From positions 1-64,000 of the forward strand of contig NZ_JAMXMY010000012.1 in the NCBI RefSeq assembly GCF_024055795.1: a stretch of 64,000 bases of DNA. Reading direction: 5' to 3'. Origin of the DNA: Actinoallomurus purpureus (GTDB taxonomy: Bacteria > Actinomycetota > Actinomycetes > Streptosporangiales > Streptosporangiaceae). The notes beneath the pieces were generated by a model. That model had not been told where the DNA came from, did not search any database, and worked only from the letters and a program-made list of their open reading frames with translations. Both the position numbers and the translations under genes were made by a program. Below, piece by piece: positions 7,520 through 35,834 of this stretch (position 1 is the first letter of the stretch; each line of letters opens with the position of its first letter).

Positions 7520-11170
<3,651 letters not shown>

Positions 11171-14637: not shown

Positions 14638-15840
14638 GTGGCCGTGCGGCTCCTCCTGCTGATGGCAGGAACATTCTTCATCGGCACCGATGTATTCGTC
14701 ATCGCCGGGATGCTTCCCGAGATCGGTGATTCCCTCGGCGTATCCATCGCAGCCGTCGGACAGCTGATGACCGGCTTCGCCATCAGCTACGCCCTGCTCG
14801 GCCCTTTGCTGTCCAGTCTCCTCAGCAGCCGGTCACCGCGTATGGCCCTGCCGGCCGCGCTCGGTGCGGTCGCCGTGGGAAACCTGATCTGTGCCGGCGC
14901 GGACTCCTTCCTGGTCGCGATGCTCGGCCGCGTTCTGGTGGCCGCCGGAGCCTCGCAGTTCACTCCCCATGCATCGGCGCTCGCGGCAGAACTCGTGCCT
15001 GAAGACCGGCGGGGGAAGGCGCTGGCGTCGGTCACCGGGGGGCTGGCAATGGGTTCGGTGCTGGGCGTCCCGGCCGGCACTTGGGCTGCTTCGGCCTTCG
15101 GCTGGAGGCCCACGCTCGTGGTGCTGATCCTCGGCACCGCGTCTGTGGCCGTCGCATTGAGCGTGAGTCTCCGGGGAGTCGGGGTGCTTCGGCCGAGCAT
15201 CAGTGTGCGGGCACGGTTCGCGACGCTGCGAACGCCGGCGATTCGTTCGGTACTGGTCCTCACGGGAGTGATCGTGACCGCCGAGTACTGCGTCTACACT
15301 TACGTCAGCGCCGTCTTCGGCGACGTCACCCATGGCAACGGCAACCTCCTGGCAGTGCTGCTGCTGTCCTTTGGACTCGGCGGCGTGTCAGGCAACGCCA
15401 TCGCCGGGGCTCTCATGGACCGCCCGGCCGGGCGCCACATCGTGCTCGTGGCCGTTGTCGGGCAGGGCGTCAACTTCCTTCTCCTGCCACTGACAAGCCA
15501 GTCCTTCGCCTCGGCGATCATCGCCATGGCCCTGTGGGGCGTTACCGGATGGATGTACGCGGCACCGCAACAGCATCGGCTGCTACGTCTCGCCGGTCCT
15601 GCGGGTCCGCTGGCCATGGCGGCGAACAGCTCTGTCATCTACATCGGCGTTGCCATCGGTGGTGCGATGGGAGGCGTATTCCTAGGAAACATGAAGGGCA
15701 ACTGGCTGGCCCTGCCCGCCGCGGCCGTCTGCGCACTGGCCCTGATACCCGAGGTGCTCTTCCGCCGCGCGGAGGCAGAAAGGCGAAAGACGACAGGCGG
15801 CTCTTCCGAAGTGAGCGCCGATCAGGTTGCCAGCGTGTAG
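14638..15840 (+). CDS. MFS efflux transporter (sugar/drug efflux type)
   Basis: A 400-residue, roughly 12-helix major facilitator of the AraJ/YdhP-like group. The first helix carries FFIGTDVFVIAGMLPEIGDSLGVS. The region GRVLVAAGASQFTPHASALAAELVPEDRRGKALASVTGG fits the loop around helices 4-5. It probably exports a small drug-like or sugar-like compound at the cell membrane. GTG 14638 follows AAGGTGA. It converges with the assembly-line gene and sits between it and a broken MarR, so it may be the third exporter of the cluster or an independent resistance gene. Confidence 0.85.
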   Translation: MAVRLLLLMAGTFFIGTDVFVIAGMLPEIGDSLGVSIAAVGQLMTGFAISYALLGPLLSSLLSSRSPRMALPAALGAVAVGNLICAGADSFLVAMLGRVLVAAGASQFTPHASALAAELVPEDRRGKALASVTGGLAMGSVLGVPAGTWAASAFGWRPTLVVLILGTASVAVALSVSLRGVGVLRPSISVRARFATLRTPAIRSVLVLTGVIVTAEYCVYTYVSAVFGDVTHGNGNLLAVLLLSFGLGGVSGNAIAGALMDRPAGRHIVLVAVVGQGVNFLLLPLTSQSFASAIIAMALWGVTGWMYAAPQQHRLLRLAGPAGPLAMAANSSVIYIGVAIGGAMGGVFLGNMKGNWLALPAAAVCALALIPEVLFRRAEAERRKTTGGSSEVSADQVASV

Positions 15841-15854
15841 TCGTCATGTCATTT

Positions 15855-15890
15855 CGTAGCCGCGGGTGTTCTTCCTGCCCCACGGCTACG
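15855..15890. terminator. Terminator between MFS gene and assembly-line gene
   Basis: CGTAGCCG (15855-15862) pairs with CGGCTACG (15883-15890), extended by GGG/CCC. The stem overlaps the assembly-line stop codon at 15886-15888. It is placed to end transcription from both convergent genes. Confidence 0.6.
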
Positions 15891-18800
15891 CCGTTCGCTC
15901 TGTGAGGATGCGGGCCACCGCGCGAATCGTCGGCTCGTGCATGAACTCCGGCAGCGGGTACTGATATCCGAACCGCTCGCGGATCCTGGCCAGGATCCGC
16001 ACCGCCTTGAGGGAGTTGCCCCCGGTGTCGAAGAATGAACGATCCAGCGGGATCGACGGCACCTGAAGCTCCGCGCACCACATCGTGTGCAGCGCCTTCT
16101 GGGCGGGCGTCTCCGGTGCGGCGTCCTTCGCCGGTCCGGGCAGGGGCAGCGTCTCCATGGCGAGCTTGCCGCTGGCGTTCACCGGCAGACGGTCCACCCG
16201 GAACCAATGGTCGGGGATGAGGTAGGCCGGAAGCGTGCGGCGCAGCCCCTCACGCAGCGCGACGCTCCACTCCAGGTTCTCCGCGGCGCCGGGTTCGAGC
16301 ACGACATAGGCCACCAGTGCGCCCTCGCCATCATCGCTCCGGTGCACCACGACCGCGCTGTCCCGGACGCCGAGCAACCGGCCGAGCGCCCACTGGACCT
16401 CACCCGGCTCGACGCGATGGCCGCGGATCTTCACCTGGTCATCCAGCCGGCCGAGGAAGCACAGCACGCCGTCGGCTCGCCAGCGGACCAGGTCCCCGGT
16501 GCGGTAGACCCGCTCGCCCTGCTCCGCCGGTCCGTCGACGAAGCGCTCCGCCGTACGCGCCGGATCGCCGACGTACCCCGTGGCCAGCCCCGGGCCCGCC
16601 AGGCAGAGTTCGCCGACCGCGCCGACCGGCACCGGCCGCCCATGCCCGTCGACGACCCTGACGCGCACACCGTCGATGGGCGCCCCGATCGGAACGGTCG
16701 TCTCATCGCGGTCGGTGACCTCGTACGACGTGGCGATGACCGACGCTTCGGTCGGCCCGTACTGGTTGAAGAGCCTGGCCTTGGGATGCGCGTCGAGGAG
16801 GCGACGCAGCGCCGGGGTAATGACCAGTTGCTCTCCCGCCACGCAGATCTCGCGCAGGGACGGCACCCGTAGCCCGTGCTCGGCGAAGTACTTCAGCGGC
16901 GTGTACGCGATGTGGAGGCGCTCGACGCCGTGCCGGCTCATCAGCTCTCCGAGGGCCTCCGGGTCCTGCCGGACCCCGTCCCCCGGCAGAACGAGCGCGG
17001 CTCCGGACGCCAGCGTCCCGAAGATCTCCTGAACGCTGACGTCGAAGCCGGCGGAGGTCCACTGCAGGGTGCGAAGCGGAGGATGCGCGCGCAGCTGCCA
17101 CCGCACGAGGTTGACCGGGCCGCGATGCGGCACCAGCACGCCCTTGGGGCTGCCGCTGGAACCGGACGTGTAGATGAGGTACGCGGGATCCTCCGGCCCG
17201 ACCTCCGTCTGCGCCCCCGGCTCCGCCTCGGCCTCGGCCGCCGTGGAGAGCTCGGCGGGTCCCGCGTCTTCGGCCGGTCCTGCGCCTCCGGAAGGCCGGG
17301 TGCGCGCGGCGGGCGACGGGTCCGCGTCCGGTTCTGTCGCGACGACATGGGTGGGCCATTCCGACAGGGCCGGGTGAGCACCGGCGGACCCGGCGTCGAC
17401 CAGCAACAGCGAGGCGCCGCTGTCCGTCAGGCAGTACGCCAGCCGCGGTTCCGGCAGCGACACGTCGAGGGGCAGGTACGCGGCCCCGGTCTTGAGCACC
17501 GCGAGCATCGCGACGATCAGGCCGTGCCCGGGCGCCAGGCACAGGCCGACGACCTGGCCGCGGCCGACTCCGCGTTCGCGTAGCTCACCGGCGAGCCGGT
17601 CGGCCGCGCCGTCCAGCTCCGCATAGCTCAGGGTCGTCGTGTCATCGATCAGGGCCGGCGCGTCCGGGGTGCGCCGTGCCTGCCGTTCCACCAGGTGGTG
17701 CAGGCACTCGGTGGAGTCCTCGGTCACCGCGCCCTGCCACGACTGCAGCAGGGCGGCGTCCTCCGCCGTGAGCTCCGTCAGCCGGGACAGTGGGGCGGAG
17801 GCCATCGTGGTGGCCCGCCGCAGCACGTTCTCCAGGTAACCGAGGATCCGGTGTACGGTCGCCTCCTCGAACATCCCGGCGTTGTACTCGACAACGCACC
17901 GTACGCCGTCCGGCTCCCGCGTCAGGTAGAAGGTCAGGTCGAACGGCGCCCGCTCACTGGGGACGTCCACCGATCGTACGTCGAGGCCGGCCGAACCGAG
18001 ATCCGTCGCGGCGTGGTTCTCGTACTCCACCATCACGCCGAAGAGCGGATTGCCCCCGGGTACGCGTTCCGGGTTCAGCGCGCTCACGACCTCGTCGAAC
18101 GCCGCGTCCTGGTGGTCGTACGCGCGCAGGGTGCGGTCCCGTACCCGGCCGACGAGATCCTCGAACGAGGGGTCGCCGGACAGGTCCAGCCGGATCACCA
18201 CCGTGTCGATGTACATGCCGATCCGGTCCTCGGTGCCGTCTGGCCGGTTGGTCATGGCGGTACCGAGCATGAAGTCGTCCTGGCCGCTCATCCTGCCGAG
18301 GACGGACGCGAGCCCGGCGAGCAACACCATGAACGGCGTCGCCCCGCATTCGCGGGCCAGGCCGGCGACCTCCCGTCCCAGTCCGCCGTCCAGGTCGTGC
18401 ACCAGACTCCGGCCCGTCGCCTGTCGCCCGGGCCGGTCCGGCGGGAGGACCAGCACCGGTGCACCGGCCAGCTCCTCGATCCAGAACTCCAGGCTCCGCT
18501 CGCCGCGCCGCGCCGCGACCGCCGGGTCGGCGCGCGGCTCGTCCGGAAGCTCCGGCAGCGACTCCGGCTCGCCGGGCCAGGCGTCGTACGCCGCGACGAG
18601 ATCCCGGCAGAAGACCTGCGTGGACAGGGAGTCGAAAATGATGTGGTGCGCCACCAGGAAGAGGACGTGGAGGTCCTCCCCCAGCCGGGCGAGCCGTAGG
18701 GAGAAGAGCGGACCGTCGGCGAGGTCCAGCACGGTGTCCGCCGTCGAGCGCGTCAGCTCGGCTATCGCCTCGTCCACCGATCGGTGCCGCATGTCGACCG

Positions 18801-21800
18801 TGGGACACGCGACGGCCTTCGGCGGCCGGACGATCCGCCACAGCGTCCCGTCCGTCTCCGCGAACACCGAGCGCAGCTGCGAGTGCCGGGCGACCACCCG
18901 GTCGAGCGCGCCTTGGAACGCCGGCGGATCGAGCCGGCCGCGCAGCACGATCGCCTTCGGCTCGTAGTAGTCACGGCGCCCCGGGTACATCTGCTCGACG
19001 AGCCAAAGCCGCTGCTGCGCCGCAGACGCGGCCACGGCCTCACGCGGCGGTCCCGCCGGGGCGGCGGTCGCCGCCACGTCCGTGTCTCCGGGATGGACGG
19101 GCGGCGGCTCGGCCCGTGTGCCGTACGGCCGCCCCGGTGGTACGGCGGGGCCGGTCCTTCGGAGGGCCGCCGAGGTCCCGGCTCGGGACCTCGAATCGAT
19201 GTCTCCGGAAGGCGCGGGCGGGCGCCCGGCCTCCGGCCTGACGCCGCCGTCCGCGGGCCGGAGGTCGCGCAGGACCGGCACCAGCGGGAGCGCCGCGAGC
19301 ATCCGGTCGTGCGCCACGCCGAAGTCCACGAAACAGGCGATCTCGTCCGCGCCCGCCGCCACCACGGCATCGGCGATCGGGCGGCAACTGTCCGGCGTGC
19401 CGATCAGAGCCCGGTCTGCGCAGTATCGCTCGTATGCCCGCTCCAGCAGGAAATCCAGGTCCTCCGGGTCGGTACCGTCCAGGTCCGCATCGAGACCCAA
19501 GCTGCGGGCGAGACCGTCCAGCAGTGGCAGCGACGAGCGGAGGTAGTCGCGGAAGGGGCGCGACGCCTCCTCGCGAGCGGTCGCGAGATCGGTGCCGAGG
19601 TAGGTGTGCATGAGGACCACGACGCGGCCCGCCGCCGGATCCAGCCCGCACGCCGCGCGGGTCCGCCGGTACAGCGCGATGTTCGCGGCCAGATCCGCGA
19701 TGCTCTGCGACATCAGGTTGGTGACGATGCCGAGATCGTTCTCGGCGGCCGTTCGGTAGCTGTCCGGGTTGCCCACGACGGCCACGAACATCGGCGGCCG
19801 CTCCTGAACCGGCCGCGGGAACAGGCTCACCTCCACGTCGGACCCGGTGCCGGACGTGGCCCGTACCCGTTCCCCGGCCCACAGCCGCCGTACGGTGTCG
19901 AGCCCTCGGTACATCAGGTCCCGGCGGCCTCCGTAGTTGCCGGGCGCCAGCACGAAGTCGTTCGCGTGCCAGCCCGACGCCACGCACAGCCCGACCCTGC
20001 CGCCCGAGAGGTTGTCGACGACGGACCACTCCTCCGCGACCCGGATCGGCTCGTGCAGCGGCAGCACCACCGAGCCCGCGTTCAGCCGGATCCGCGAGGT
20101 ACGCGTCGCGAGTGCCGCGGCGAGCACGGAGGGGTTGGGAAAGATGCCGCCGAAGGAGGCGAAGTGCCGCTCGGGCAGCCACAGTGAGTGGAGACCGTGC
20201 TGATCAGCGAACTCCGCAGCGGCCAAGATATGCGCGTATTTGTCCGTAAGATCCTGATCCGGATAGTCACCGAAGAAGTAGAGGCTGTAGTCGCATCCCG
20301 CCGGCGGCGGACCGTCCGCGGGCGGATCGACCGACGGCGGAGCGACCGGCTGGGGAGCGACCGGCGTCACGGCGGACCGCGCCGTCCCCTCCCGCGAGCC
20401 GCCGATCGGCGCGGCGCCTGAACCGGCGCCCGTCCGTGCCGCGCTCCCCCGCGCGGGCGCCGGACGATCCGCGGTCGGATCCGGTCGGGCGGTGGCCGCG
20501 GTCATCGCGTCGAGCTGGCGGCCCATCAGGTCGGTCACCTTGTTGATCGCTTCGAGCTGCGCGGCGCACAACACGCTCAGCTCGCTGGGCGCGGCCATGC
20601 CCTGGACCGCCCCGGACATGAGCGAGCCATCGGGTCCGTCCGGCACATCCGGTGCGGCGGTCACGGGGGCCGCCCGGCCGATGCCGCCCGCCGGATCCGG
20701 GGCCCCCGATGCGGGAGCGGGACGCTCGCCCGCAGTGAACCCGCCGGCGGGTGGCCGGGCGGGTCGGGCCGTCACCGTCTCCGTGCTCGGCCGGGCCCGC
20801 GGAAGAGCGGGCGGCTGCGGGCGTGCGGCGGCGATCGCCCGGGCCAGCTTGCGCGGGGTGTCGGCCTCGGCGAAGAGGTCCCGTATCGGGATGCGCATGT
20901 CGTAGTCCCGCTCGATCTGGCGGGTCAGGCCGACCAGGGACAGGGAATCGCCGCCCATCGCGGTGAAGGTCGCGTCGACGTCGACGGCCTCCCGCGCGAG
21001 CCGGAAGCGGCGCGCGGTCAGATCCCGTACGGCCTCCAGGAATTCGCTGGTCACGCCGGTCTCCTCTGACTGGTCGCCGATGGACTCGTGCTCGTCACCG
21101 ATGGGTCCTTGCTCGCCGTCGACCGTCTCCGGCCGGCCGGTGATCGGCTCGTGCCGGTGGCCGGCGCCGTAGGGAGGCAGCGTGGTTCTCTTGAATGGAT
21201 ATCCGGGCAGCGGGACACGGCGCCCACCGCGCGCGACGGAGTCCCAGGCCACCTCATGGCCCGCGCGGTACAGCTCGGCGAGGGCCAGCAGTGCCGTCTC
21301 GGCCTGTCCCGCATCGGCGTCCGCACGCTGGGTGGCCGTCCAGGCCAGGCCGGTCAGCGCCCGCCGGCCGAGACGCACGAGTTCCGCGTCGGGGCCCAGC
21401 TCGATGACCCGGTCGCAGCCCGACGCGTCGAGCGTGGCCAGCGCCAGGTCGAAGCGCACCGGCCGGCGAGCCTGCGCGACGAGGTACTCGTGCGGGACGA
21501 CGGTGCCCGCCGGCACCTCGGCTCCGTCGACTCCCCGGATGAACGGCACCCGCAACGGCAGCAGGGTGCACCCGGCGGCGAGCTCCGCCAGAGGCTCCAC
21601 CACCGGATCGAGCATGCCGGTATGGAACGCGCGGGACACGCGGACGCGCCGCCACGCCATGCCGTACCGTTCCAGCAGCTCTTCGGCCATGCGCACGGCG
21701 TGCTCGGTACCGGCGAGGACGAAGCCGTTCGCGCCGTTGCGCGCGGCGATCTCCAGCCCGCTCTCCCGGCCGACGCGCTCGGCCATCGCGATGTCGGCGC

Positions 21801-24800
21801 GAACGGCGAGCATGCCGCCCGCCGCCATGCCGGACTCCATCAGCCGGCCGCGCCGCGATGTCAGGCGCACGCCGTCCGCCAGTGACAGGGCGCCCGCCGC
21901 GTACAGTGCGGCGATCTCGCCCATGCTGTGCCCGAGAACCCGGTCCGGCACGACGCCCCACGCCAGCCACTGCTCGGTCAGCGCCGACTGGAGGGCGAAC
22001 TGCGCCGGCTGGGCGAGCGCCGTGGGGAGTGCCTCCGCCTGCTCCGCCCGGTCCAGAAGCACGTCGAGCAGCCCGTCCCCGGTGGCCTCCCGGTGCACCC
22101 GGTCGCACTCGTCCAGCACCTCCCGCATCGCCGGGAAGGCCGCGTACAGCTCCCGCGCCATTCCCCGATAGGCGGAGCCCTGCCCGGTGTAGGCGAAGGC
22201 CGGCCTGCGGTCCGTGTCCCGTTTCGTACGCGAGACGGCCGCCGCGGCTTCGTTTCGTGATCCGGACGTCGCCGGGGAGCCGCCGTCGCCCGTACCGGAT
22301 CCCACCGTGGACGTCCTCTCGCCGGTACCGGCCGTCGCCGTCTCGCCTCCGCCGCGCGCCAGCCGGTTCAGCCGGTCGGCGAGTTCGGCGGAGGAGGAAC
22401 CGGTCACGGCCGTGCGTTCGGCGTACGCGGGGCGCGCGGCCATGGTGGCGACGACGTCGGCAGGCCGGGTATCCGGATGGCTCGTCAGGTGATCAGCGAG
22501 TCGCAGGGCGAGTTCCCGTACGGCGGCGCGATCGTGTCCCGATATCGGGACCAGGACGGGAACCTCACCGGTCCTCTCCCCGCGGTCGCCCTGGTTCCCG
22601 GTCGTCTCGCCGGCGTCTGCGCGCGCGTCGGCGGCGGACCGGGGCGCCTCGCGGAGCACGACGAAGGCGTTGGTGCCGCCGACGCCGAGCGCGTTGACGC
22701 CCGCGTACCGCGAAGAATCCGCAGACCGGGCGGGCATCGGCCGGGACTCGGTGACGAGTTCGAGCGGACCGCCGGCGAGATCGAGTTCCGGGCTGGGCCG
22801 GCGCAGGTTGACCGTTGGCACCAGCCGCCGGTGCCGGAGCATGAGGACCACCTTGATCAGTCCGGCCATACCGGCGCACGCGTCGAGGTGCCCGATGCCG
22901 GCCTTCACCGACCCGAGTGCGCAGCGGCCGGACGGTTCCGCGTCGCCGCCGGGGACTCGCGGTTCCGGGTCGTCGCCGAGGGCTCGGCTCAACGCCCTGA
23001 ACTCCACCGGATCGCCGACCGGGGTTCCGGTCCCGTGTGCCTCGACGTAGCTCAGATCCGCGCCGCGAACGCCCGCGCGCCGCAGCGCCGTGCGCACGAC
23101 CTCGGCCTGGCCCTCCACACTCGGCGCGGTGTATCCCACCTTGCGGGCGCCGTCGTTGTTGATCGCCGTGCCGGCGATGACCGCGAGGATCGGATCCTCG
23201 TCGGCGAGGGCGGCGGCCAGCGGCTTGAGAAGCACGGCGGCGACGCCGTTGCCGCCGACCGTGCCGTCCGCCTCGGCGTCGAAGGGACGGCAGACGCCGG
23301 TCGCCGACAATACCGACTCGGGGTGGTGCACGTACCCGGCGTCCTGCGGCAGAGCGACCGACGCGGCTCCCACCAGCGCCAGGTCGGCGTCCCCGCCGCG
23401 CAGCGCCTGCACGGCCAGGTGCACGGCGACGAGCGAGGTCGAGCAGGCCGTTCGCACCCCGACGGCCGGACCGGTCAGACCGAGCCGGTAGGCCACCCGG
23501 GAGGCCAGGAAGTCGGGTTCGGCGCCGAAGGTGGCCAGCATCGAGTCGGCGAGGTCGAGTCCACCGGGCCGGGTGCCTCCCGTCTGGTAGTCGCGGAGGT
23601 TCGCCCCCTCTCCGGCGTACACGCCGATTCGTACGCCGTCCGCGTGCCTCGCGTAGCCGGCGCTCTCCAGCGCAAGGTAGGCGCATTCCAGGAACAACCG
23701 GTGCCCCGGATGGGTCAGCGCCGCCTCCCGGGGGTGCATGCCGAAGAACGCCGCGTCGAACGCGTCGACCTCGGCCAGCACGCCGCCGGCCGACCGGTCC
23801 CAGGGCCCGCGTCGGGACTCTGGCCCGGATCCGGCGGGAGGATCCCCCTGGCGCGTCCGCGGGTCGAAGACCGTGACGCGGTTTCTGCCGTTCACCAGGT
23901 CGTCCCAGAACTGCTCGGGTGTGGTCGCCCCCGGAAACCGAAGGCTCATCCCGATGATCGCGATTGGCATGTCCGCTGCCGCAGGACCCCGGCCCGCCAT
24001 GGTCCCGGGCCCCGCCGCGCGGCTCTGCTCGGCCGGCCGACCTGGCGACGCCTCGGACCCTGCGGGCTCCGGTACGGGAGGCGTCAAGCCCGATTCCCGG
24101 AGGTGGGAGGCGAGTTCGGCGATCGAAGGATGTTCGAAGAACAGGACCGTCGAGAGGTCGACGCCCAGCTCCTGACCGATGCGGCCGCGCAGCCGGGCGA
24201 GCAGCACCGACGTCAGGCCCAGCTCGAAGAAGGGCGTGTCGTCGGCGCCGGCGAGCTCGTCCGGGGTCGTTCCGCACAGCGCGGCGATCTCCCTTCGCAG
24301 CAGGGCACGGACACCCCGTTCGCGGTCGTGGTGCGTTCCGGGCGCCTCCGGCCGTTCCCGGGAGGCGGGCGGGCCCGGCAGCATCCGTACGAGCTCGTCC
24401 CGGCGGATCTTGCCGTTCGGGGTACGCGGGAAGTCACCGGCCGGGACCGGGAGGACGTGCCGGGGGAACAGGCCCAGCCGGCGCGACACCGTGCGTCCGA
24501 TGTCACGGGCGATGTCGGCCGGCGGACGGCCGCCCTGCTCCGGGGCGAAGAAGAGCGCGAGGACCTCGCTCCCGGCCGCCTCGTCGGGCACGCCGCAGGC
24601 GGCGGCGAACCCGGCCGCGACCCCGTCGACGGACTCGACGACGGCCTCGATCGGGTGGCAGGGGTGGTTCTCCCCGTTGATGATGACGACGTCCTTGGCC
24701 CGGCCGACCATCACGATCTGGCCGTCCTGGATGAACGCCAGGTCACCGGTGTCGAGCCACGGCCGACCGCCGTCGTCCGCGGCGACGAAGGTCCGCGTGT

Positions 24801-26085: not shown

Positions 26086-26095
26086 GCGTCTCCGC

Positions 26096-27595
26096 TCAGC
26101 TCGTACGGCGCCAGAAGGCGCCGTACCCGTCGATGTCCTGGATCTCGTCATGGATGCCGTGCTGGTGCCGGAAGTCGTGCACGGCCTCGCGGCACACGTC
26201 GATCAGGTAGTCGTCGACGATCACGAAGCCCCCCACGGACAGCTTCGGGTAGAGATGGACGAGCGCGTCCATGGTCGACTCGTACAGGTCCCCGTCGAGC
26301 CGGAGCAGCGCGAGGCGCCGCACCGGTGCGGTCGGCAGCGTGTCGCGGAACCAGCCGGGCAGGAAACGCACCTGGTCGTCCAGCAGGCCGTACGTTTCGA
26401 AATTGCGCTTGACGGTGTCGAGGGAGACTCCCATGACGTCGTTGAACTCGTGCGTGCCCAGTTCGACGTCGCCGGGATGCCCCGCCACGACCTCGGGCAT
26501 CCCCTGAAACGAGTCGGCGCACCAGACCCTGCGGTCCGCCACCTCGTACGCGCGGAGCATCCCCCGCATGAAGATGCACGTCCCGCCGCGCCAGACACCT
26601 GTCTCGAGGAGATCCCCGGGAATGTCGTCACGCAGGATCCGCTCGACGCAGTCCTGGAGGTTGTCGAGCCGGCGCAGCCCCACCATGGTGTGCGCCGTGC
26701 TGGGCCAGTCGAGCCCGGCACCGCGGTTGATGTGGTCGTACGCGGTGTCGGATGCCCAGGCGCTCGGTATCGGCGGGTCCTCGTAGACGACGTTGGTGAG
26801 CACCTTCTTCATCAGGTCCAGGTACATCTGCGCACCCGTGTTCATGAGGAGATCGCCGTCCACTCCGGTCCTCCGCGTCTCGTGCGGGTCCCGCCGGACG
26901 GCCAACTCCGTCCGGAGGACGCGCGCGCAGTCCTGGGCTCGTCTCGTGATGAACTGGTGCCCGGCACCGCTCACCGTGTGCACGCTCACCGGTCGCCCGA
27001 CGGTCTCCCGCCACCGCTCCGGGTCGTGTTCCTTCGTGACCGGGTCGTCGTCTCCCCACAGCACCGTCACCGGGATCCCGAGCGGTGTGTCCGGGACGAG
27101 GACGGTGTGGCGGGCGAGCAGTGCCTCGTCCGCGCGCAGGAGGCCGACGTAGTACGCCATGGCCTCGGTATTGCGCGCGAGTTCCTCCGGGAGGTCACCG
27201 ACACTCCGGAGGAAGTCGACGATCTCCTGGTCCGGCGTGTCCGGACGCCAGCGGGGGCCGAAGCCGCACTGCGGCGGCGGGCAGCCGGACACGACGAGAT
27301 GCCCGTCGCCGGGGAGCAGCCGGGCCGCCTCGTACGCGATGACCGCGCCCATGCTGTGCCCGAGCAGCGCCCATCCGCCCGGCCCCGCCTCCGCCCGCAC
27401 GAGCCGGGCGACGTCCGCGGCGGCGTCCGCGACGTCCGCGTACGCCGGCTCGTCCGCCCGCGCGCCCTTGCCCGCGAGCTCGACCGGCCGGACCCGTGCG
27501 GCATCGCCCATCAGCGCGGACCAGCCGCGGAACATGGCGGCCGTCGCACCCGCCGGTGGGACGCAGAAGAGGGTCGGAACGGTTTCGGCGCACAC
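26096..27595 (-). CDS. Thioesterase-TylF-type O-methyltransferase fusion
   Basis: A single frame joins two enzymes. Residues ~1-235 are a type II thioesterase with VPPAGA, the nucleophile GHSMG, an Asp region GDDDPVT and GAGHQF. From about 250 to the end it is a macrocin (TylF/MycF)-type SAM-dependent O-methyltransferase with LETGVWRGGTCIFMRG, ADSFQGMP, and the Mg-binding RLDGDLYES and VDDY motifs. The family methylates sugar or polyketide hydroxyls. The TE half could edit or release the chain from the downstream assembly line. The start is uncertain: GTG 27595 fits the TE family best, GTG 27655 is an alternative. The gene is coupled to the assembly-line gene. Confidence 0.85.
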   Translation of the reverse strand: MCAETVPTLFCVPPAGATAAMFRGWSALMGDAARVRPVELAGKGARADEPAYADVADAAADVARLVRAEAGPGGWALLGHSMGAVIAYEAARLLPGDGHLVVSGCPPPQCGFGPRWRPDTPDQEIVDFLRSVGDLPEELARNTEAMAYYVGLLRADEALLARHTVLVPDTPLGIPVTVLWGDDDPVTKEHDPERWRETVGRPVSVHTVSGAGHQFITRRAQDCARVLRTELAVRRDPHETRRTGVDGDLLMNTGAQMYLDLMKKVLTNVVYEDPPIPSAWASDTAYDHINRGAGLDWPSTAHTMVGLRRLDNLQDCVERILRDDIPGDLLETGVWRGGTCIFMRGMLRAYEVADRRVWCADSFQGMPEVVAGHPGDVELGTHEFNDVMGVSLDTVKRNFETYGLLDDQVRFLPGWFRDTLPTAPVRRLALLRLDGDLYESTMDALVHLYPKLSVGGFVIVDDYLIDVCREAVHDFRHQHGIHDEIQDIDGYGAFWRRTS

Positions 27596-27617
27596 AAAAT
27601 CACTTTTTACAGCACAG

Positions 27618-27670
27618 TCCACATCAAGGAAAGATGTGGATATTCCCGACTCCACCCGTAGATACGGGTG
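27618..27670 (-). promoter_or_regulatory. Two adjacent dyads upstream of the TE-OMT gene
   Basis: TCCACATC/GATGTGGA (27618-27625 with 27633-27640, 7-nt loop) lies next to CACCCGTA-GA-TACGGGTG (27653-27670). Both are perfect 8-bp inverted repeats in an AT-richer patch just upstream of GTG 27595. They could be operators for a dimeric regulator or leader hairpins. If translation begins at GTG 27655 they would lie within the coding region. Confidence 0.5.
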
Positions 27671-27720
27671 ACCGTAATCGGGCCCTCCGGCGCGACCTGG
27701 GGTTTCTCGCCCGGCGGACA

Positions 27721-27745
27721 GGTCCTGCCGGGAACCGGCAGGACC
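27721..27745 (-). terminator. Hairpin between MFS and TE-OMT genes
   Basis: A perfect 11-bp inverted repeat GGTCCTGCCGG/CCGGCAGGACC with a 3-nt loop lies about 70 bases after the MFS stop on the minus strand. It looks like a terminator or attenuator that separates the upstream cluster genes from the TE-OMT/assembly-line pair. Confidence 0.65.
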
Positions 27746-27813
27746 CGGATTCGTGGCCCTGCGCTCGGCCCCTCTGCCCCCCGTCCGTCTCCCGGGGCTC
27801 CGGACCTGCTTCG

Positions 27814-29079
27814 TCATGGAGCGGCCAGAGAGTGCCGGCGTAGTCGGGAAAAACTGAAGACGGTGATCGCGAGACAGGCGATGGAGCACACAGTGAGGAG
27901 CACGGGCACGTCTCGCAGGGGTGTCGCCGCGACGAGGACGCCCGCGATGGGATAGGGAATGGCAACGAGAAGGACGACCGCGGAGACGGTGACGCCGAAG
28001 TCCTCCACCGGAATGACCCGGGCTCTGGCTATACGGAGAAAACAGGCAAAAGCGCCTTCGGATGCCAAAAACAGACAGGTCCACACAAGATAGATCGCAA
28101 AGCCGGATGCCATGCCGGCACCCACGGCCGCCAGGCAGGCGATCAGACCGCTGAACAGCCCGATCTTAAGAATCCCCATCCGGGAGGCGACGCGAGTCAT
28201 GACGATGATCACTGCGAGCGACGCCGTGGCGCCCAACGTCCAGACGATGCTGGCGTACGAGGTCGGGCGGCCGAAGCGGTCTTCCACGACGGCCGGCGTT
28301 ATCCCGAGGATCGTTGCGGCCAGCAGGTTGAAGGCCGCCGTGGCGAGGACTATGTGGATCAGCGCCCGATAGCGCATCACACCTCGCAGACCCGCCGTGA
28401 GCTCGGCCCACGTGGAGCGCCGGGCCCGCATGCCGGACGGCCGTTCGGGAAGCCTGCGGCACAGGCCCCCGCTGATCAGTACCAGTGCCAGCACGGCGGA
28501 CAGCACCCAGACGTCGCCCTGGCCGGCGAGGACTCCAGCGACGAAAGGCCCCGCGACGAGCGCCATCTGGTCGATTCCGGCTTGCGTGGATTGCATCCAC
28601 GCCATCGACTTCGATCCGTTGATCTCCACGCCCAGCTTCTCGACGGCTATGTAGGAGGCCTGGCCGAAGGTTCCGGCGGCGAAGGCGAGGGCCACGAGGA
28701 GCGCCCAGGCGTCCGGACGGGTGACGATGCCGATGAGCGCGCAGGTCAGCAACACGGTACGGACGGCCTCCGCGGCGAGGAGGCAGGTGCGGGATCCGAA
28801 GCGATCCACCAGCGGGCCGGCGATCGGGATGCCGATCAGGCGAGGCGTCCATTCAAGGGCCAGGACCAGCCCGGACCAGGCCATGCTGTGGGTGGCGTTG
28901 AAGATCAGCAGCGGGATCGCGAAGGCGAGCGTCTCCGTGGCGAGGCGGTTCGTGACGCGCACGATCATGGATCCGTAGAGCGCCTGCGCCGAGTCCGCGG
29001 CCGCCTCGGCCCGATCGGCCGGCGCCGTGACATCGCGTTCAATGGAGGCCGTCACCGTACGGCCGTGATCAGGCGACAA
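27814..29079 (-). CDS. MFS transporter (cluster exporter)
   Basis: A 421-residue MFS protein with about 12 hydrophobic segments. After a ~35-residue polar N-terminus it reads RVTNRLATETLAFAIPLLIF. The loop PLVDRFGSRTCLL is the helix 2-3 signature region. The second half opens with LTAGLRGVMRYRALIHIVL. It likely exports the cluster product. The TTG start at 29079 has AGGA 8 bases upstream and overlaps the last codons of the ATP-grasp gene, indicating translational coupling. GTG 29055 is an alternative start. Confidence 0.85.
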   Translation of the reverse strand: MSPDHGRTVTASIERDVTAPADRAEAAADSAQALYGSMIVRVTNRLATETLAFAIPLLIFNATHSMAWSGLVLALEWTPRLIGIPIAGPLVDRFGSRTCLLAAEAVRTVLLTCALIGIVTRPDAWALLVALAFAAGTFGQASYIAVEKLGVEINGSKSMAWMQSTQAGIDQMALVAGPFVAGVLAGQGDVWVLSAVLALVLISGGLCRRLPERPSGMRARRSTWAELTAGLRGVMRYRALIHIVLATAAFNLLAATILGITPAVVEDRFGRPTSYASIVWTLGATASLAVIIVMTRVASRMGILKIGLFSGLIACLAAVGAGMASGFAIYLVWTCLFLASEGAFACFLRIARARVIPVEDFGVTVSAVVLLVAIPYPIAGVLVAATPLRDVPVLLTVCSIACLAITVFSFSRLRRHSLAAP

Positions 29080-30385
29080 CGCTGATCCTGTCCGCGAGCG
29101 TCTGCCGCAGCCGCACGGCGTCGCCGTAGGTGTCGGCCGTGAACATTAGGTGGCCGATCCGCGACCGCAGGTCCTGACGGTCGGGGATCGGCTGCCCGGC
29201 GGATATGGAGATCTGCGCGTCGTGCACGCCTGGAAGGCGCAACGCCTCTTCCCAGCCGCGTAGCTCCGTGTATCCACGTCCGACGAGGCTGGGCTCGGTG
29301 ACGAAGTGGATGCCGGCGACCGCCGCCGAAGGCGTGACCGAGGCGGGGCAGGGCACTCCCGCCAGCGCGGCCAGCGATGCCTGGGCCAGAGACAGGCCGG
29401 TGACCGTTTCGACCATCTCGGCGATATGGTCCCCGGCCATGCGAGCCCCGACCTCGATGAGAGTCGGCCCTTCGTCCGTGACCCGATACTCGGCGTGGAA
29501 CGCACCCGTCGTGAGACCCAGGCCCTTGGTGACGTGGTCCAGGTAGTCCGCCACAACCTCATGGCCCGGCACCTCCGCCGCCGGACGGACGATATGACCC
29601 TCTTGTTGGAAGTACGGCTCAGGGCCCAGCCACTTCTCGGTGATGGCCAGGATGGTGGCCTGACCTTGCCGGACATACCCTTCGGCGGAGAACTCCTGGC
29701 CGCGAAGGTACTCTTCGACCACCACCGTCGAGCCCGGGAGCTGCTCGGCGATGGGCAGCGTCTCGGCCGCGATCCGCTGATAGCCGTCGATCAGATCACG
29801 CCGGCTGTCGGCCCGCCGGACACCGATGGTGCCCACCATCCCCGACGGCTTGATGACACAGGGATATCCGACCGTCTCGCCGGCGTCGGCGGCCTCCTCC
29901 AGCGAGGAGGCAATGACGAAGGCCGGAGCTCGCACGCCGGCCGCATGCATCCGCGCCCGCATGGCTGATTTGTCGCGAACCGCGTCTGCATCCGCCGGAT
30001 CGATTCCTTCGACTCCGAGATCCGTCGCGATTGCGGCCACGGCCGGAACGACGAACTCGACTCCGGCCACAACGGCCTGGATCGGATGCTCGCGGTGGAC
30101 CCGCCTGGCCGCCTCCCGGAGCTCGTGGAAGGACAGTGTGTCGACCATGCGGATGTCGTCGATGAATTCCCGGACGTTTTCGGGAAGCGCATAAAAGTCG
30201 CGACCAGTCGTGAGAACCGTGGTGCGCATCTGCAGCTGGTGCGCCGCACGCGGATACAGCTGCCCGGAAGAAGCAGGAGCTACGATCAATACATGCACGT
30301 CATTACTCGTTTTCTGGTCAGGTCGAAACACGTAATATAGCCGGTCTTCCGTTTCGGAAGGTTTTCCTTCAGGTAACATGATCAT
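29069..30385 (-). CDS. ATP-grasp carboxylate-amine ligase
   Basis: A 438-residue ATP-grasp protein. The preATP domain is N-terminal (VHVLIVAPASSGQ). The ATP-grasp core has DKSAMRARMHAAGV, YPCVIKPSGMVGTIGV, VVVEEYLRGQEFSAEGYV, and the metal-binding end EVGARMAGDHIAEMV. The C-terminal lid resembles BacD/L-amino-acid ligases. These enzymes join a carboxylate to an amine through an acyl phosphate. Within this cluster it could form a dipeptide-like or amide bond on a precursor or on the released acid. The N-terminal start is unsure: ATG 30385, or GTG 30298 just before VLIVAP. A small hairpin (30346-30360) lies between these options. Confidence 0.85.
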   Translation of the reverse strand: MIMLPEGKPSETEDRLYYVFRPDQKTSNDVHVLIVAPASSGQLYPRAAHQLQMRTTVLTTGRDFYALPENVREFIDDIRMVDTLSFHELREAARRVHREHPIQAVVAGVEFVVPAVAAIATDLGVEGIDPADADAVRDKSAMRARMHAAGVRAPAFVIASSLEEAADAGETVGYPCVIKPSGMVGTIGVRRADSRRDLIDGYQRIAAETLPIAEQLPGSTVVVEEYLRGQEFSAEGYVRQGQATILAITEKWLGPEPYFQQEGHIVRPAAEVPGHEVVADYLDHVTKGLGLTTGAFHAEYRVTDEGPTLIEVGARMAGDHIAEMVETVTGLSLAQASLAALAGVPCPASVTPSAAVAGIHFVTEPSLVGRGYTELRGWEEALRLPGVHDAQISISAGQPIPDRQDLRSRIGHLMFTADTYGDAVRLRQTLADRISVVA

Positions 30386-30474
30386 GACCGGCAGGCGGCG
30401 TCGCTTAGCCGCATCCCCCGGCGCCGACGGCCGGTTCGCAGGGAAATGGCGGCTGACTCCTGACGATCGTCCGG

Positions 30475-30897
30475 TCAGGCGCGTTGCTCGGTCAGGTAGC
30501 GGCGGATGGCGTCGTGGATGTAAGGCGGAATGGCCAACGTCGACAGCTGTTCCGGCGCGAGGAACCGGAGCTCGACGCCCTCGGCGAGCGGTAGCCCGGT
30601 CTCGTCGCCGTCCCAGGAGGCGGCGAAGAACGTGATCATCTGGCCGGAACCGTCGCTGTCACGGATCTCGAACAGCTCGGTCATCCCCTCGACCGCGAGA
30701 CCGGCTTCTTCGGCCAGTTCGCGGACGATGGCCTCCGCCGGGGGCTCGCCGGGGTCGCAACCGCCACCGAGCAGGCTCCAGTGGCCGGGCCAGGCGATAC
30801 CCGGCAGATCATCCCGCAGGTGAAGAAGGAGTTCACCGCTGTGATTGACGATGATCGCGACTGCCCCACGCGCGGTGGCCGGCTCTTGACGGGACAT
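30475..30897 (-). CDS. Nudix hydrolase
   Basis: About 140 residues with a complete Nudix box: GCDPGE, seven residues, then RELAEEAGL, matching G-x5-E-x7-REU-x-EE-x-GU. It should cleave a nucleoside-diphosphate-linked substrate with a divalent metal. ATG 30897 shares its A with the TGA stop of the asparagine-synthetase-like gene, so the two are translationally coupled (a GTG three bases earlier is also possible). Placement inside the cluster suggests housecleaning of a nucleotide side product from adenylating enzymes, or tailoring of a precursor. This is inference. Confidence 0.9.
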   Translation of the reverse strand: MSRQEPATARGAVAIIVNHSGELLLHLRDDLPGIAWPGHWSLLGGGCDPGEPPAEAIVRELAEEAGLAVEGMTELFEIRDSDGSGQMITFFAASWDGDETGLPLAEGVELRFLAPEQLSTLAIPPYIHDAIRRYLTEQRA

Positions 30898-32663
30898 CAC
30901 GCGGCGGCCCTTTCCTTCTGGCCGGAATACCAGGCGGCCGCCATGAGCGCCTGCGTCCTCGTGCGGTCGAACCGGCCGTCTGACTTCAAACCGCTTTCCA
31001 GCAACTGCCGCATGCCGATCGGGACATCGGTGAGCGCGGCGTGGATGTGGGCGTCGGTCCAGGACGCGAGCGGGCCGGTGAGCCAGGTCGGTACCGGGCT
31101 GGCGAAGCCGAGCTTGTCGCGGGTGTCCCAGACCTTTCGCGGAAGACCGAGAGCCATGGCGGCGTCTCTCAGGATCCGTTTGCTCGCCACCGGCTCACAG
31201 ATCTTGTAGTCGGACGGCAGACGGTACGCGAATTCGACGAGTGCTCGTGCGAGATAGGGAGACCGGCGTTCGATGGCGAACGCGGAGGCGAGCTTGTCAC
31301 TCGTCATGACCAGCGGCCGCCAGGCGGTGGACAGATCCACCAGCGTCAGGGCTCGCGCCAGGTCACCACCGGCCCGGCACAGGGCATCTGCGACCAGCTC
31401 GCGGATTCGTTCTTCCGGGTCAGGCCCGCGCAGGATCAGCTTGGTCACCGCTTCGACGGGGTCCGGCCGCTCTCCTGCCGCGTACAACAGTTTCGCGGCG
31501 AGGGGACGGTACGCATCCAGGCCGGCCGACAGGACGGCATCCGGGCCGAAGAGCGCGATCGCGTGACGAATGTAGCCCATCAAGAACTCGTCCGGGCCGA
31601 TGCCGCCGACCACCACGCGGATACCGCGGTCCGCGACCGCCTTGTAGGCCATGTACTCGGAGAACGTCGATGCGTTTCCCATCGGGTAGTCCAGCGCCGT
31701 CACGATGTGCGGCAGGGCGGCGACGAAGTCCGCGATGTCCGGTTCGATGACGACGAGTTCCGCGCCGATGTCCCGGGCGATCGTCGCCGCGATCTCGGAT
31801 TCGTCGAGGCGATCCTGGCCGGGATAACGGACCGTGACGCAGACCGGCGGCCGCATGAGGTAGGCCAGCATGGAGGAGTCAAGCCCGCCGGACAGGAGCA
31901 GGGCGAAGTCGCCGTCCGGGGCCCGTAGCGGAACCTGCTCGGCGAGCGTGACGGAGTATTCCGCGAGTGCGCTCCGGTAATCGCCGCGCCAGGGCTCCAG
32001 ATCCTCCAGTCGCCAGAACGTCCGTTGCTCGAGTGACCCTGTGTCGACATCGAAGGTCAGCAACGTGGCGGGAGCCAGCAATTGGATCCCCTGGAACGGG
32101 GTGTCGACGCCGACCGGAGTCTCGATCGCCACCATCTCTGGCCGGATCACCAACGGCGCGGGCCCGTAGCCGGTCAGAGTGGTGACCTCTGACGCGAAGG
32201 CCAGCCGCCCGCCGTCCAGCCGCCAGTAGAGCGGCTTCTCCCCTAGCCGGTCCCGGGCCAGGAACAGCTTTCCGATCTTCGTGTCGTAGATGGCGAGTGC
32301 GTACATCCCGTCCAGCCCGTCCAGGCAGGACGGACCGAACTTCGCCCAGGCCCGTAGCACCAGATGCGCGTCCGTCTCACCTGCGGCCAGCGGGATGTCC
32401 CAGGCTGCCGCCTGCCGCCGGTAGTTGTAGACCTGTCCGTTGAAGGTCAGCAGCAGTCCCGAATCGTCGTCGACATAGGGACCGAGTGCCGCCGTCGAGT
32501 CGACGATCAGAAGGGTGTTCATGCCCAGTGTCGCGCCGCCATCGGCCGCGACGACACACCTGCTGCCGTCAGGGCCACGGTGCGACTGCGCGAGTCCCAT
32601 CGCCGCGACCGTACTCTCATGCCGATCGGCGTATGCCCCGGCCAGTCCCACTATTCCGCACAT
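30897..32663 (-). CDS. Asparagine-synthetase-like glutamine amidotransferase
   Basis: A 588-residue AsnB-type enzyme. ATG 32663 has GGGAGG upstream and gives MCGIVGLAG, so Cys2 is the expected glutaminase nucleophile after Met removal. The N-terminal Ntn domain also has SHRGPDGS and FNGQVYNYR. The C-terminal synthetase domain has the PP-loop SGGLDSS (~residue 250) and GGIGPDEFLMGY. It can move glutamine ammonia onto an adenylated carboxylate. In the cluster it may amidate the product or act as a condensing enzyme. A housekeeping asparagine synthetase is less likely given the Nudix coupling and neighbours. Confidence 0.9.
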   Translation of the reverse strand: MCGIVGLAGAYADRHESTVAAMGLAQSHRGPDGSRCVVAADGGATLGMNTLLIVDSTAALGPYVDDDSGLLLTFNGQVYNYRRQAAAWDIPLAAGETDAHLVLRAWAKFGPSCLDGLDGMYALAIYDTKIGKLFLARDRLGEKPLYWRLDGGRLAFASEVTTLTGYGPAPLVIRPEMVAIETPVGVDTPFQGIQLLAPATLLTFDVDTGSLEQRTFWRLEDLEPWRGDYRSALAEYSVTLAEQVPLRAPDGDFALLLSGGLDSSMLAYLMRPPVCVTVRYPGQDRLDESEIAATIARDIGAELVVIEPDIADFVAALPHIVTALDYPMGNASTFSEYMAYKAVADRGIRVVVGGIGPDEFLMGYIRHAIALFGPDAVLSAGLDAYRPLAAKLLYAAGERPDPVEAVTKLILRGPDPEERIRELVADALCRAGGDLARALTLVDLSTAWRPLVMTSDKLASAFAIERRSPYLARALVEFAYRLPSDYKICEPVASKRILRDAAMALGLPRKVWDTRDKLGFASPVPTWLTGPLASWTDAHIHAALTDVPIGMRQLLESGLKSDGRFDRTRTQALMAAAWYSGQKERAAA

Positions 32664-32777
32664 CTGGTTACCTCCCAGGAAGATCGAGGATCCGACCGGC
32701 ACGTGGTCGCGCCGGCGCAGGTCGAGGGAATCGAGGTCACGAGCGTCAGGGCCGCTGCCAGGCGGCCGAGCGAGTGG

Positions 32778-33971
32778 TCACCGAGCAGGCGCCAGAGCGC
32801 GATGGGATCCGATCGCGACGGCGGCCGCGAGAAGAACGGGCAACGCGAGAGCGAGGGACAGACTGCTGACCGAGGCGAGAGCCCCGATCGCGGCCGGCCC
32901 GATGAGCATGCCCAGATAGCCGGTGCCGGCGACGGCCGCCACGGCACGAGGCCCGCCGCTCCCGGCGGCGGTGATGAGAGACGGGACCACCGTGGACAGG
33001 CCCAGGCCGAGGGCGGTCCAGCCCAGCAGGGCGGCGGGGGCGGTACCGATGGCCAGCCCCGTACCGAGGCCCACCGCGGCGATCAGGCCGCCGACGCGGA
33101 CCAGCTTGGCGGGCCCGTAGCGCGCCGTGAGGCGATCCCCTATCAGACGTCCCGCCGCCATCGCCGCGCTGTAGACCGCGTAGGCGACGGCCGAGACGGC
33201 GGCGGATGCGCGCAAGGTGTCCAGATGGACGGCCGACCAGTCTGCGGCGGCGCCCTCTCCCAGCAGGCAGGCCGCCGCCAGCGCGCTCAGCAGCCAGATC
33301 GCGGGTCCCCGCGTGCGCACCGGACGGCCGGAGCCCGCCTCGTGGTCCTTGATGGCGCCGTCTCCGTCGAGCCGGGCGACGATGCGGATCGCCGGAGTGG
33401 ACGCGAGGGCCGCGAGCGCGAGCGTCATTCCGACTCCGACGAACAGCGCCTCATGTGGCAGACCGGCGGTCACCACTGCGAGAGCGGCACCGAACAGCGC
33501 GCCGAGGCTGTAGGAGGCGTGCAGCCCGGACATGATCGGCCGCCCGTACGCCTCCTGGCAGCGGACCGCCGTGGCGTTGGTCCCGATGTCCAGCAGACCA
33601 TGGGCCAGCCCGAAGAACACCGCCGCCACGATGAGAGTCGGCAGCGTACGACACAGGCCGAGTGCGGACAGCGCCAGGCCGAGAGCTGCCGTCGGCATCA
33701 CCAGCAGCTTGGCCGAACCATAACGATGAGCCACGCGGCCGCCGAGCTGTAGACCGGCGAGCAGTCCGGCCGCCGCGCCGAGCAGCACTGCGGCAAGGCG
33801 CCCCGAGCTGAGATGTGCCGCCGCCTGCACGGCAGGCATCCGGGCGCCCCATACCGCCATCGCCGCACCGAGCCCGCTGATGTATGCGATCAGCAGACGA
33901 CGAGCCGCCACCGGCGGTGCTGGAGAGAGGAGAGGAACCTCGGGTGTGAAAGTGGAGGTGGGGGCTGTCAC
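32778..33971 (-). CDS. MFS transporter (YbjJ/fucose-permease type)
   Basis: A 397-residue MFS protein with about 12 membrane helices. It has RLLIAYISGLGAAMAVWGARMP in the first helix, LGGRVAHRYGSAKLL in the 2-3 loop, and the second-half repeat RLIGDRLTARYGPAKLV. It is the first gene of the minus-strand cluster, separated from the AsnB-like gene by ~114 non-coding bases. The gene fragment at 5073 belongs to the same general carrier type. Likely a membrane exporter; the substrate is unknown. Confidence 0.85.
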   Translation of the reverse strand: MTAPTSTFTPEVPLLSPAPPVAARRLLIAYISGLGAAMAVWGARMPAVQAAAHLSSGRLAAVLLGAAAGLLAGLQLGGRVAHRYGSAKLLVMPTAALGLALSALGLCRTLPTLIVAAVFFGLAHGLLDIGTNATAVRCQEAYGRPIMSGLHASYSLGALFGAALAVVTAGLPHEALFVGVGMTLALAALASTPAIRIVARLDGDGAIKDHEAGSGRPVRTRGPAIWLLSALAAACLLGEGAAADWSAVHLDTLRASAAVSAVAYAVYSAAMAAGRLIGDRLTARYGPAKLVRVGGLIAAVGLGTGLAIGTAPAALLGWTALGLGLSTVVPSLITAAGSGGPRAVAAVAGTGYLGMLIGPAAIGALASVSSLSLALALPVLLAAAVAIGSHRALAPAR

Positions 33972-34412: not shown

Positions 34413-35834
34413 TCAGAAGTTGATCATGTGGCCGGCCAGGCCGTGAATCGCCTCCTTGACCGCCTCGCCCAGAGTCGGGTGGGCGTGGACGTTCCGGGCG
34501 ACCTCGTGAACGGTGAGGTCCCACTGCTGGGCGAGCGTCAGCTCCGGCAGCAGCTCGGTCACGTCGGGCCCGATCAGGTGCGCGCCGAGCAACTCGCCGT
34601 ACTTCGCGTCGCTGAGGATCTTCACGAAACCGGTCGGGTCGCCCAGGCCGTGGGACTTGCCGTTCGCGGTGAAGGGGAACTTGGCGACCTTGACGTCGAA
34701 GCCCTTCTCCCGCGCCTGCGCCTCGGTCCAGCCGAAACTGGCGATCTGCGGCTGGCAGTAGGTCGCGCGCGGGATCATCACGTAGTCGAGCTCCATCGTC
34801 TCGGCGTCCGCGATGGTCTCGGCGGCGACGATGCCCATCGACTCCGCCGCGTGCGCGAGCATCAGCTTGGCGGTCACGTCCCCGATCGCGAAGATGTGCG
34901 GCACGCTGGTGCGGCCCCGGCCGTCGATGTCGATGGCGCCGCGTTCGGTCAGCCGCACGCCGGTCTTCTCCAGGCCGTAGCCGTCGACGTTCGGGGCGAA
35001 GCCGATGGCCTGCAGCACCTTGTCGGCCTCGAGGACCTGCTGCTGCCCGTCCTTGGAGACGGTGACGCGGACCTTGTCTCCCGACTCGTCGATGCCCTCG
35101 ACGCGGGTGGAGGTCAGCACGTCGATGCCGAGCTTGCGGTAGCGCCGGCCCAGTTCCTTGGAGACCTCCTCGTCCTCCAGCGGCACGAGCCGGTCGAGGA
35201 ACTCCACGATCGTGACCTTGACGCCGTAGTTGCTCAGGACGTACGCGAACTCTACGCCGATGGCGCCCGCGCCGGCGATGACGATGCTGCCCGGCAGCTC
35301 CTCGGTGAGGATCTGCTCCTCGAACGTTACGACCCGCTCGCTCAGCGACGTGCCCGGCAGCAGCCGCGCGCTCGCGCCGGTCGCGAGGATGCAGTGGTCG
35401 AACGTGACGGTCTGTGTTTCACCCCCTTGGCTACGCCCCGCCGCCCCCAAACCGTTGACCTGGATGGTGTTCGGGTCGGTGAAGGTGCCCCGGCCGTTGA
35501 ACTCGGTGATGCCGTTCTTCTTCATCAGGTAGTGGACGCCCTTGACGCGGCCGTCCGCGACCGTACGGCTGCGGCGGAACGCCTCGCCGTAGTCGAAGCG
35601 CACCTCGCCGTCGACCTGGATGCCGAACGTCTTCGCCTCACGGGTGAAGATGTGCGCCAGCTCGGCGTTGCGCAGCAGGGCCTTGGACGGGATGCAGCCG
35701 ACGTTCAGGCAGACGCCACCCCAGTATTTCTCCTCGATGACCGCGGTCTTGAGGCCCAGCTGGGCGGAGCGGATCGCGGCGACGTACCCACCCGGGCCCG
35801 CGCCGAGAACGACGACGTCGAAATGAGTGCTCAT
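34413..35834 (-). CDS. lpdA: Dihydrolipoyl dehydrogenase (E3)
   Basis: A 473-residue FAD/NAD disulfide oxidoreductase. It has the FAD dinucleotide fold [13 protein letters not shown] (residues 8-20), the redox pair [13 protein letters not shown] (~residues 39-51), the NAD fold [13 protein letters not shown], the FAD-binding [15 protein letters not shown], and the C-terminal His-Glu dyad in HAHPTLGE. It reoxidises dihydrolipoamide of 2-oxoacid dehydrogenase complexes in the cytosol. Length is standard. Transcribed away from the TetR gene; no E1/E2 genes are nearby, so it is a stand-alone locus. Confidence 0.95.

Follow-up and report, generated by a model that had tools for sequence, protein, structure and literature searches.

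An in-line luciferase-like monooxygenase and a TylF O-methyltransferase as a candidate oxidise-and-methylate pair in a hybrid PKS-NRPS locus of Actinoallomurus purpureus

Introduction

The locus considered here lies in a 64,000-nucleotide stretch of the 9.25 Mb genome of Actinoallomurus purpureus (the window; RefSeq assembly GCF_024055795.1, contig NZ_JAMXMY010000012.1, positions 1 to 64,000, G000:C3:1-64000 in our numbering). Its central gene encodes a hybrid of polyketide synthase (PKS) and non-ribosomal peptide synthetase (NRPS) modules in which a luciferase-like monooxygenase (LLM) stands between the two modules, with a TylF O-methyltransferase encoded by the adjoining gene. The question raised by the locus is what an oxygenase in this position does to the growing chain and which of the neighbouring genes act with it. 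We favour a compact hybrid PKS-NRPS pathway centred on the LLM and the O-methyltransferase as a pair, in which alpha-hydroxylation would be followed by O-methylation before the amide is formed, and put the probability of this reading at about 0.48. The reading draws on domains, motif patterns, gene order and the tree positions of the LLM, C and TylF domains, from which the chemical steps, substrates and product are predicted.

Architecture of the synthase and its methyltransferase partner

The initial annotation had described a single protein with the order AL, ACP, KS, AT, ACP, LLM, C, A, PCP and this order was recovered with Pfam and NCBIfam models (AMP-binding, PP-binding, KS, AT, PP-binding, luciferase-like monooxygenase, Condensation, AMP-binding, PP-binding). 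Motif patterns agree, with three carrier serines, TACSTS, EAHGTGT and GHLDACAG in the KS, GHSMG with AFH in the AT and HHIIFD in the C domain; the AFH motif we take to indicate the malonyl type. The open reading frame (ORF) spans 15886..26151 on the minus strand (3421 aa, being open to 26151), with the start placed at an ATG at 26085 that has GGAG upstream and lies 10 nt from the preceding gene. No aminotransferase or KR was matched by Pfam in the 3421-aa protein, which has ~190 aa between ACP2 and the LLM.

The LLM domain matches TIGR04020 (MupA/Atu3671 family) over model positions 1-339 of 341 with 457.8 bits, 213 bits above the cut-off of 244.45, and its nearest solved structure is the PuwE chain 6ket (391.9 bits), the next reaching 91.9 bits. 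The AL domain is nearest to the solved chains 6ulx (282.8 bits), 6ulw (279.1) and McyG 4r0m (276.2), with 7r7e (147.8) and the fatty acyl-adenylate ligase 3pbk (115.2) lower down; as the domain is closer to 6ulx and McyG than to fatty acyl-adenylate ligase structures, fatty-acid loading was not taken as given. The modular proline code of A domains is given as VQ(Y/F)IAHVV (PMC3874040). The window code VQHCAQVI shares 4/8 positions with it and was not assigned to proline or to another amino acid; the codes of some relatives come close.

In the adjoining gene the TylF domain (PF05711) scores 337.3 bits against a cut-off of 23 and carries the motifs RLDGDLYEST and VDDY, presumably the acidic active-site motifs of TylF. 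The start of the fused TE-TylF ORF is uncertain, being either an ATG at 27817, which overlaps the stop of an MFS gene, or a GTG at 27655.

Two designs among the relatives

LLM matches at E <= 1e-60 were present in 39 of the 297 genomes of the family, the window's own among them. Five further genomes carry LLMs 60-68% identical to that of the window in long ORFs, and the window's own genome carries one in this range at a second site. Seven such LLMs were used to scan the GTDB species genomes, which gave 410 relatives, and the counts on loci that follow refer to the best 80 of these 410. All of AL, KS, AT, LLM, C, A and PCP, with an additional C, were found in a single ORF in 46/80 loci, the design that we call type A; both ACPs were matched in 30 of the 46. 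Another 7/80 hold AL, KS, AT and LLM-C without a further C being called, where L148 is also without A-PCP in its ORF and several have a C match just outside the called ORF; 15/80 ran into a contig end or had too little flanking sequence, and 5/80 were split or odd. One MFS gene family recurs in 31/80 loci.

The kind of synthase is thus common among the relatives of the window, and the suggestion that the architecture was undescribed could not be upheld, since 46/80 loci have the same order plus a further C, and PuwE of puwainaphycin, with its in-line monooxygenase, was published in 2014 (PMC4219810). The window protein and the type A synthases of actinomycetes share the order AL-(ACP)-KS-AT-(ACP)-LLM-C-A-PCP in one ORF, the ACPs not always being matched, but the type A synthases end in a further C domain, with no TylF in the fetched stretch, whereas the window protein stops at the PCP. 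As in PuwE, an aminotransferase class-III domain precedes the LLM in two relatives, G018 and G045, where it follows the ACP. A foxicin-adjacent synthase (A-PCP-KS-AT-KR-ACP-C-A-PCP-C) resembled type A and was rejected as a counterpart, a KR and no LLM being listed for it.

TylF is present in 7/80 loci. In the second design, type B, TylF stands beside an ACP-LLM-C-A-PCP protein, with ACP-KS-AT and A-PCP on separate proteins, and eight of the 80 loci are of this kind (L074, L075, L107, L138, L143, L147, L149 and L151), as is a cluster in the window's own genome (G000:C4, ~104.0-116.4 kb, from L056 14025 to L057 6399). L138 has neither C nor KS-AT in its stretch, and L143 was assigned to type B by gene content, the TylF side being off the contig. 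The own-genome cluster encodes TE, A-PCP, TylF, ACP-LLM-C-A-PCP, ACP-KS-AT and a 262-aa protein, with its TylF 65% and its LLM 68% identical to those of the window. LLM-C-A-PCP together with a TylF that groups with that of the window is shared with type B clusters such as G000:C4 and L149 of Streptomyces viridochromogenes, whereas the A-PCP starter and ACP-KS-AT of type B are on separate proteins with TylF and TE unfused, and in the window AL and KS-AT are joined to the LLM and TE is fused to TylF.

The A-PCP protein of G000:C4 has the code DVQFAAHVAK (by eye), near the modular proline code. A protein of ~275 aa is encoded near the KS-AT gene in 5/80 loci (L074, L107, L143, L149 and L151), and the 262-aa ORF that follows ACP-KS-AT in G000:C4, which no Pfam model matches, looks similar to it by eye.

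Grouping of the oxygenase, condensation and methyltransferase domains

Trees were built for the individual domains, the careful versions using 32 of the 59 type A loci with all five domains and leaving out 27. A branch separates the window LLM and nine type B rows from the remaining rows, with a Shimodaira-Hasegawa-like approximate likelihood ratio test (SH-aLRT) support of 96 in the tree of 109 rows and support of 100/97 in that of 42 rows. The C domain of the window likewise falls with eight type B C domains (96 with 79 rows; 99/95 with 41 rows), and in the thinned set the A domain joins type B in a single clade (99/94). In the TylF tree (35 rows) a branch with support of 83/97 sets the window and seven LLM-linked TylFs apart from 27 others, the latter having no LLM beside them within ~1.5 kb on each side when same-strand matches are counted. 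The TylF of L151 had been excluded from this tree by a 200-residue filter and was added in a second one. The KS behaves differently, pairing with the KS of a type A locus of Streptomyces cinnamoneus (96/93). By these comparisons, what is distinctive in the window is that the LLM, the C domain, TylF and, less firmly, the A domain group with the TylF-linked type of cluster while the KS groups elsewhere.

The proposed pathway

In the proposed pathway the AL domain would load a carboxylic acid onto ACP1, and KS-AT would add malonate to give a beta-ketoacyl chain on ACP2. The LLM, with FMNH2 and O2, would then hydroxylate the ACP2-bound chain at its alpha carbon, and the TylF domain, brought by the TE-TylF protein, would methylate the new oxygen and so cap an alpha-hydroxy-beta-keto thioester that would otherwise be labile. 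The alpha-methoxy-beta-keto acyl donor would next be handed by the C domain to the PCP-bound amino acid, the TE would release the product and an MFS protein would export it. The C domain groups with the same lineage as the LLM and TylF, which suggests that methylation may precede formation of the amide bond.

The nearest biochemical precedent is MupA, which shares the TIGR04020 name with the window LLM and for which the consulted part of the source reports hydroxylation only of the ACP-bound beta-keto substrate, to an unstable product (PMC10953402). MupA is a free-standing enzyme of a trans-AT PKS whereas the window LLM is in line. Oxidation of a carrier-bound beta-keto chain by an in-line flavin oxygenase before amide formation, as put forward in the initial annotation, fits this biochemistry by analogy.

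PuwE is nearer in architecture and holds the nearest solved LLM. As far as its description could be consulted, it has a PKS module, an aminotransferase, a monooxygenase and an NRPS module in one protein (PMC4219810). It differs in the aminotransferase before the oxygenase, which has no match in the window synthase, and in its separate FAAL and ACP genes; the consulted part of the same source mentions no O-methyltransferase partner, whereas the window has TylF (PMC4219810). The labile hydroxylated intermediate may as such meet a different fate in each design, amination in PuwE, G018 and G045, direct passage in type A, and O-methylation in type B and the window.

Other parallels were set aside. 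The methoxy group of haliangicin comes, as far as its source was available, from a methoxymalonyl-ACP cassette, and neither lipoxazolidinone nor synoxazolidinone, both considered as precedents for the LLM, was named in the papers that one search of open-licence literature listed. In the open-licence literature searched no product matching the synthase was found, in line with the first impression that the set could not be matched to a known product.

Weighing the alternatives

A number of observations weigh against the proposed pathway. The TylF branch has moderate support, being recovered as one clade in 78% of bootstrap trees, and with L151 added the values are 79/97 and 77%, the long branch of L151 falling within the LLM-linked group. 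The frame of the L151 TylF (8664-9314, 40.6% identical) is broken, so that one type B locus seems to manage without it, and the fetched stretches of all 46 full type A loci are without TylF, from which it follows that methylation is not generally needed. The A domain forms no clade with type B in the tree of all 75 rows. Holding the KS with type B was rejected (p-AU 0.018, in a test made once a quick KS tree was known), and the AT, when held to type B, gave a constrained tree slightly better than the free one (p-AU 0.63) and could fit either side. No FMN reductase was matched by Pfam among the genes of the run, and in the comparisons only the window's own match spans the TE part, which leaves the TE-TylF fusion without comparative support.

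In one alternative the LLM does hydroxylate the alpha carbon but TylF works after release on another hydroxyl, the pairing of the two reflecting shared cluster ancestry only. The solved relatives of the window TylF include MycF and NovP, which are sugar-type methyltransferases, so that TylF may act on some other hydroxyl; TylF and TE are also on one protein, and the TylF copy of the type B locus L151 is broken. The window TylF nevertheless clusters with TylFs beside LLM genes and apart from the 27 others, and a scan of the minus-strand genes matched no sugar gene, so that we regard action after release as unlikely while giving it real weight. That the LLM inserts oxygen in Baeyer-Villiger fashion or shortens the chain, instead of hydroxylating it, appears very unlikely, as its nearest solved relative, PuwE, belongs to a pathway that makes a 2-hydroxy acyl unit, and a TylF partner requires a hydroxyl.

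Returning to hydroxylation followed by methylation on the assembly line, the simplest reading of LLM, C and TylF grouping with type B while the KS groups with type A is that the synthase is a mosaic, which would have its loading part and KS from type A and the other three parts from type B. We tentatively propose, with confidence short of that given to the pathway itself, that the LLM and TylF may be inherited together as an oxidise-and-cap cassette, giving alpha-methoxy-beta-keto amides on the assembly line after extension as an alternative to the use of methoxymalonyl extender units, with the C domain as a co-inherited gatekeeper, and that the cassette may have moved between two synthase designs, TylF being fused to TE in the window.

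Neighbouring genes

The coordinates of the synthase domains and neighbouring genes are given in Table 1. An accessory set of a TE-O-methyltransferase fusion, an ATP-grasp ligase, an AsnB-like enzyme, a Nudix protein and two MFS exporters on one strand had been noted at the outset and was confirmed by Pfam, all of it upstream of the synthase with gaps between neighbours of -11 to 176 nt for the starts chosen. The best match of the ligase elsewhere in the family genomes is 43% identical, and the enzyme may append a further amino acid. Upstream, the run gives way to a dihydrolipoyl dehydrogenase gene at 34413; beyond the downstream end of the run come plus-strand MFS and GH92 genes. The former of these (14638-15840), on the strand opposite to the run, encodes an MFS protein that matches the Cmx/CmrA family with 159.2 bits, well below the cut-off of 400, and the latter (11546-14299) a GH92 glycosidase with a ricin-type lectin domain.

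Table 1. Features of the synthase locus in window coordinates
Feature	Position	Strand	Basis and remarks
Hybrid megasynthase AL-ACP-KS-AT-ACP-LLM-C-A-PCP	15886..26085	-	One protein; Pfam/NCBIfam and motif patterns
PCP, final domain, no C after it	15889..16134	-	Pfam, motif
A domain, motif-extracted code DVQHCAQVIK	16147..17709	-	Pfam, trees
C domain	17749..19038	-	Pfam; groups with type B (TylF-linked) C domains
LLM domain, MupA/Atu3671 family TIGR04020	19273..20289	-	NCBIfam, nearest structure, trees
ACP2	20857..21084	-	Pfam, motif; predicted carrier for beta-ketoacyl oxidation
AT, GHSMG and AFH	21352..22197	-	Pfam, motifs
KS	22441..23967	-	Pfam, motifs; tree partner a type A (TylF-less) KS
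ACP1	24100..24303	-	Pfam, motif
AL loading domain, acyl-adenylate type	24352..25974	-	Nearest solved chains
TE-TylF fusion, one ORF	26096..27817	-	TE ~26945-27574, TylF ~26105-26830
MFS transporter	27814..29079	-	Pfam
ATP-grasp L-amino-acid-ligase-like enzyme (LAL_C2)	29069..30385	-	Pfam
Nudix hydrolase	30475..30900	-	Pfam; recurrent AsnB neighbour elsewhere, doubtful member
AsnB-like glutamine amidotransferase	30897..32663	-	Pfam, motifs; doubtful member
MFS transporter, likely edge of run	32778..33971	-	Pfam

The AsnB-Nudix pair

The initial annotation had treated the co-encoded set as one pathway, and while the same-strand arrangement stands, membership of the AsnB and Nudix genes is doubtful. 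Relatives of AsnB 59-75% identical were found in five other genomes (four of the 297 family genomes at E <= 1e-70 and, from 394 class genomes searched at E <= 1e-120, G350), and in all five a Nudix gene, 61-76% identical, adjoins AsnB. The synthase, TE, TylF and ligase gave no tblastn match (E <= 1e-5) in the 24.9-40 kb read round each of the five pairs, the sole match being one MFS protein of 32% identity in G289, and in 3/5 genomes the next gene belongs to the UDP-glucose dehydrogenase family. In G350 (C1, ~177-188 kb, L196 and L197) the neighbours of AsnB, Nudix and the UDP-glucose dehydrogenase gene are two genes of the integrase family and one whose product has domains of an NAD-dependent DNA ligase, and HHH and BRCT domains are encoded by another gene of the region. 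Nothing on the AsnB/Nudix pair was found in the open-licence literature searched.

An alternative in which all seven genes make one product, AsnB amidating a carboxylate and the ligase adding an amino acid, would be in keeping with the single strand and short gaps, with the glutaminase and synthetase motifs of AsnB (MCGI and SGGLDS) and with its nearest solved relative, the hydroxyamidotransferase 7ylz, although at only 90.3 bits. Against this stand the recurrence of the pair in 5/5 other genomes without a synthase-domain match, the UDP-glucose dehydrogenase-family gene that follows it in three of them, and the lower G+C of AsnB, Nudix, the ligase and one MFS gene (0.655-0.678, as against 0.73 in the synthase), and we consider a single product of all seven genes improbable. 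As the pair recurs elsewhere without the synthase, with integrases near it in G350, it is treated here as portable, and on these comparisons AsnB and Nudix are probably a separate unit that landed in the run.

Implications

If the proposed pathway is right, the comparison marks out a large group of actinomycete synthases for which no product was found, and whose members are small enough to be expressed whole, as one gene of ~10 kb with one or two partners. It also cautions that not every neighbour on the same strand belongs to the pathway. The pathway would, on the same condition, show a way for polyketide-peptide assembly lines to introduce a methoxy group at the alpha position once the chain has been extended, with a labile intermediate being stabilised as a result.
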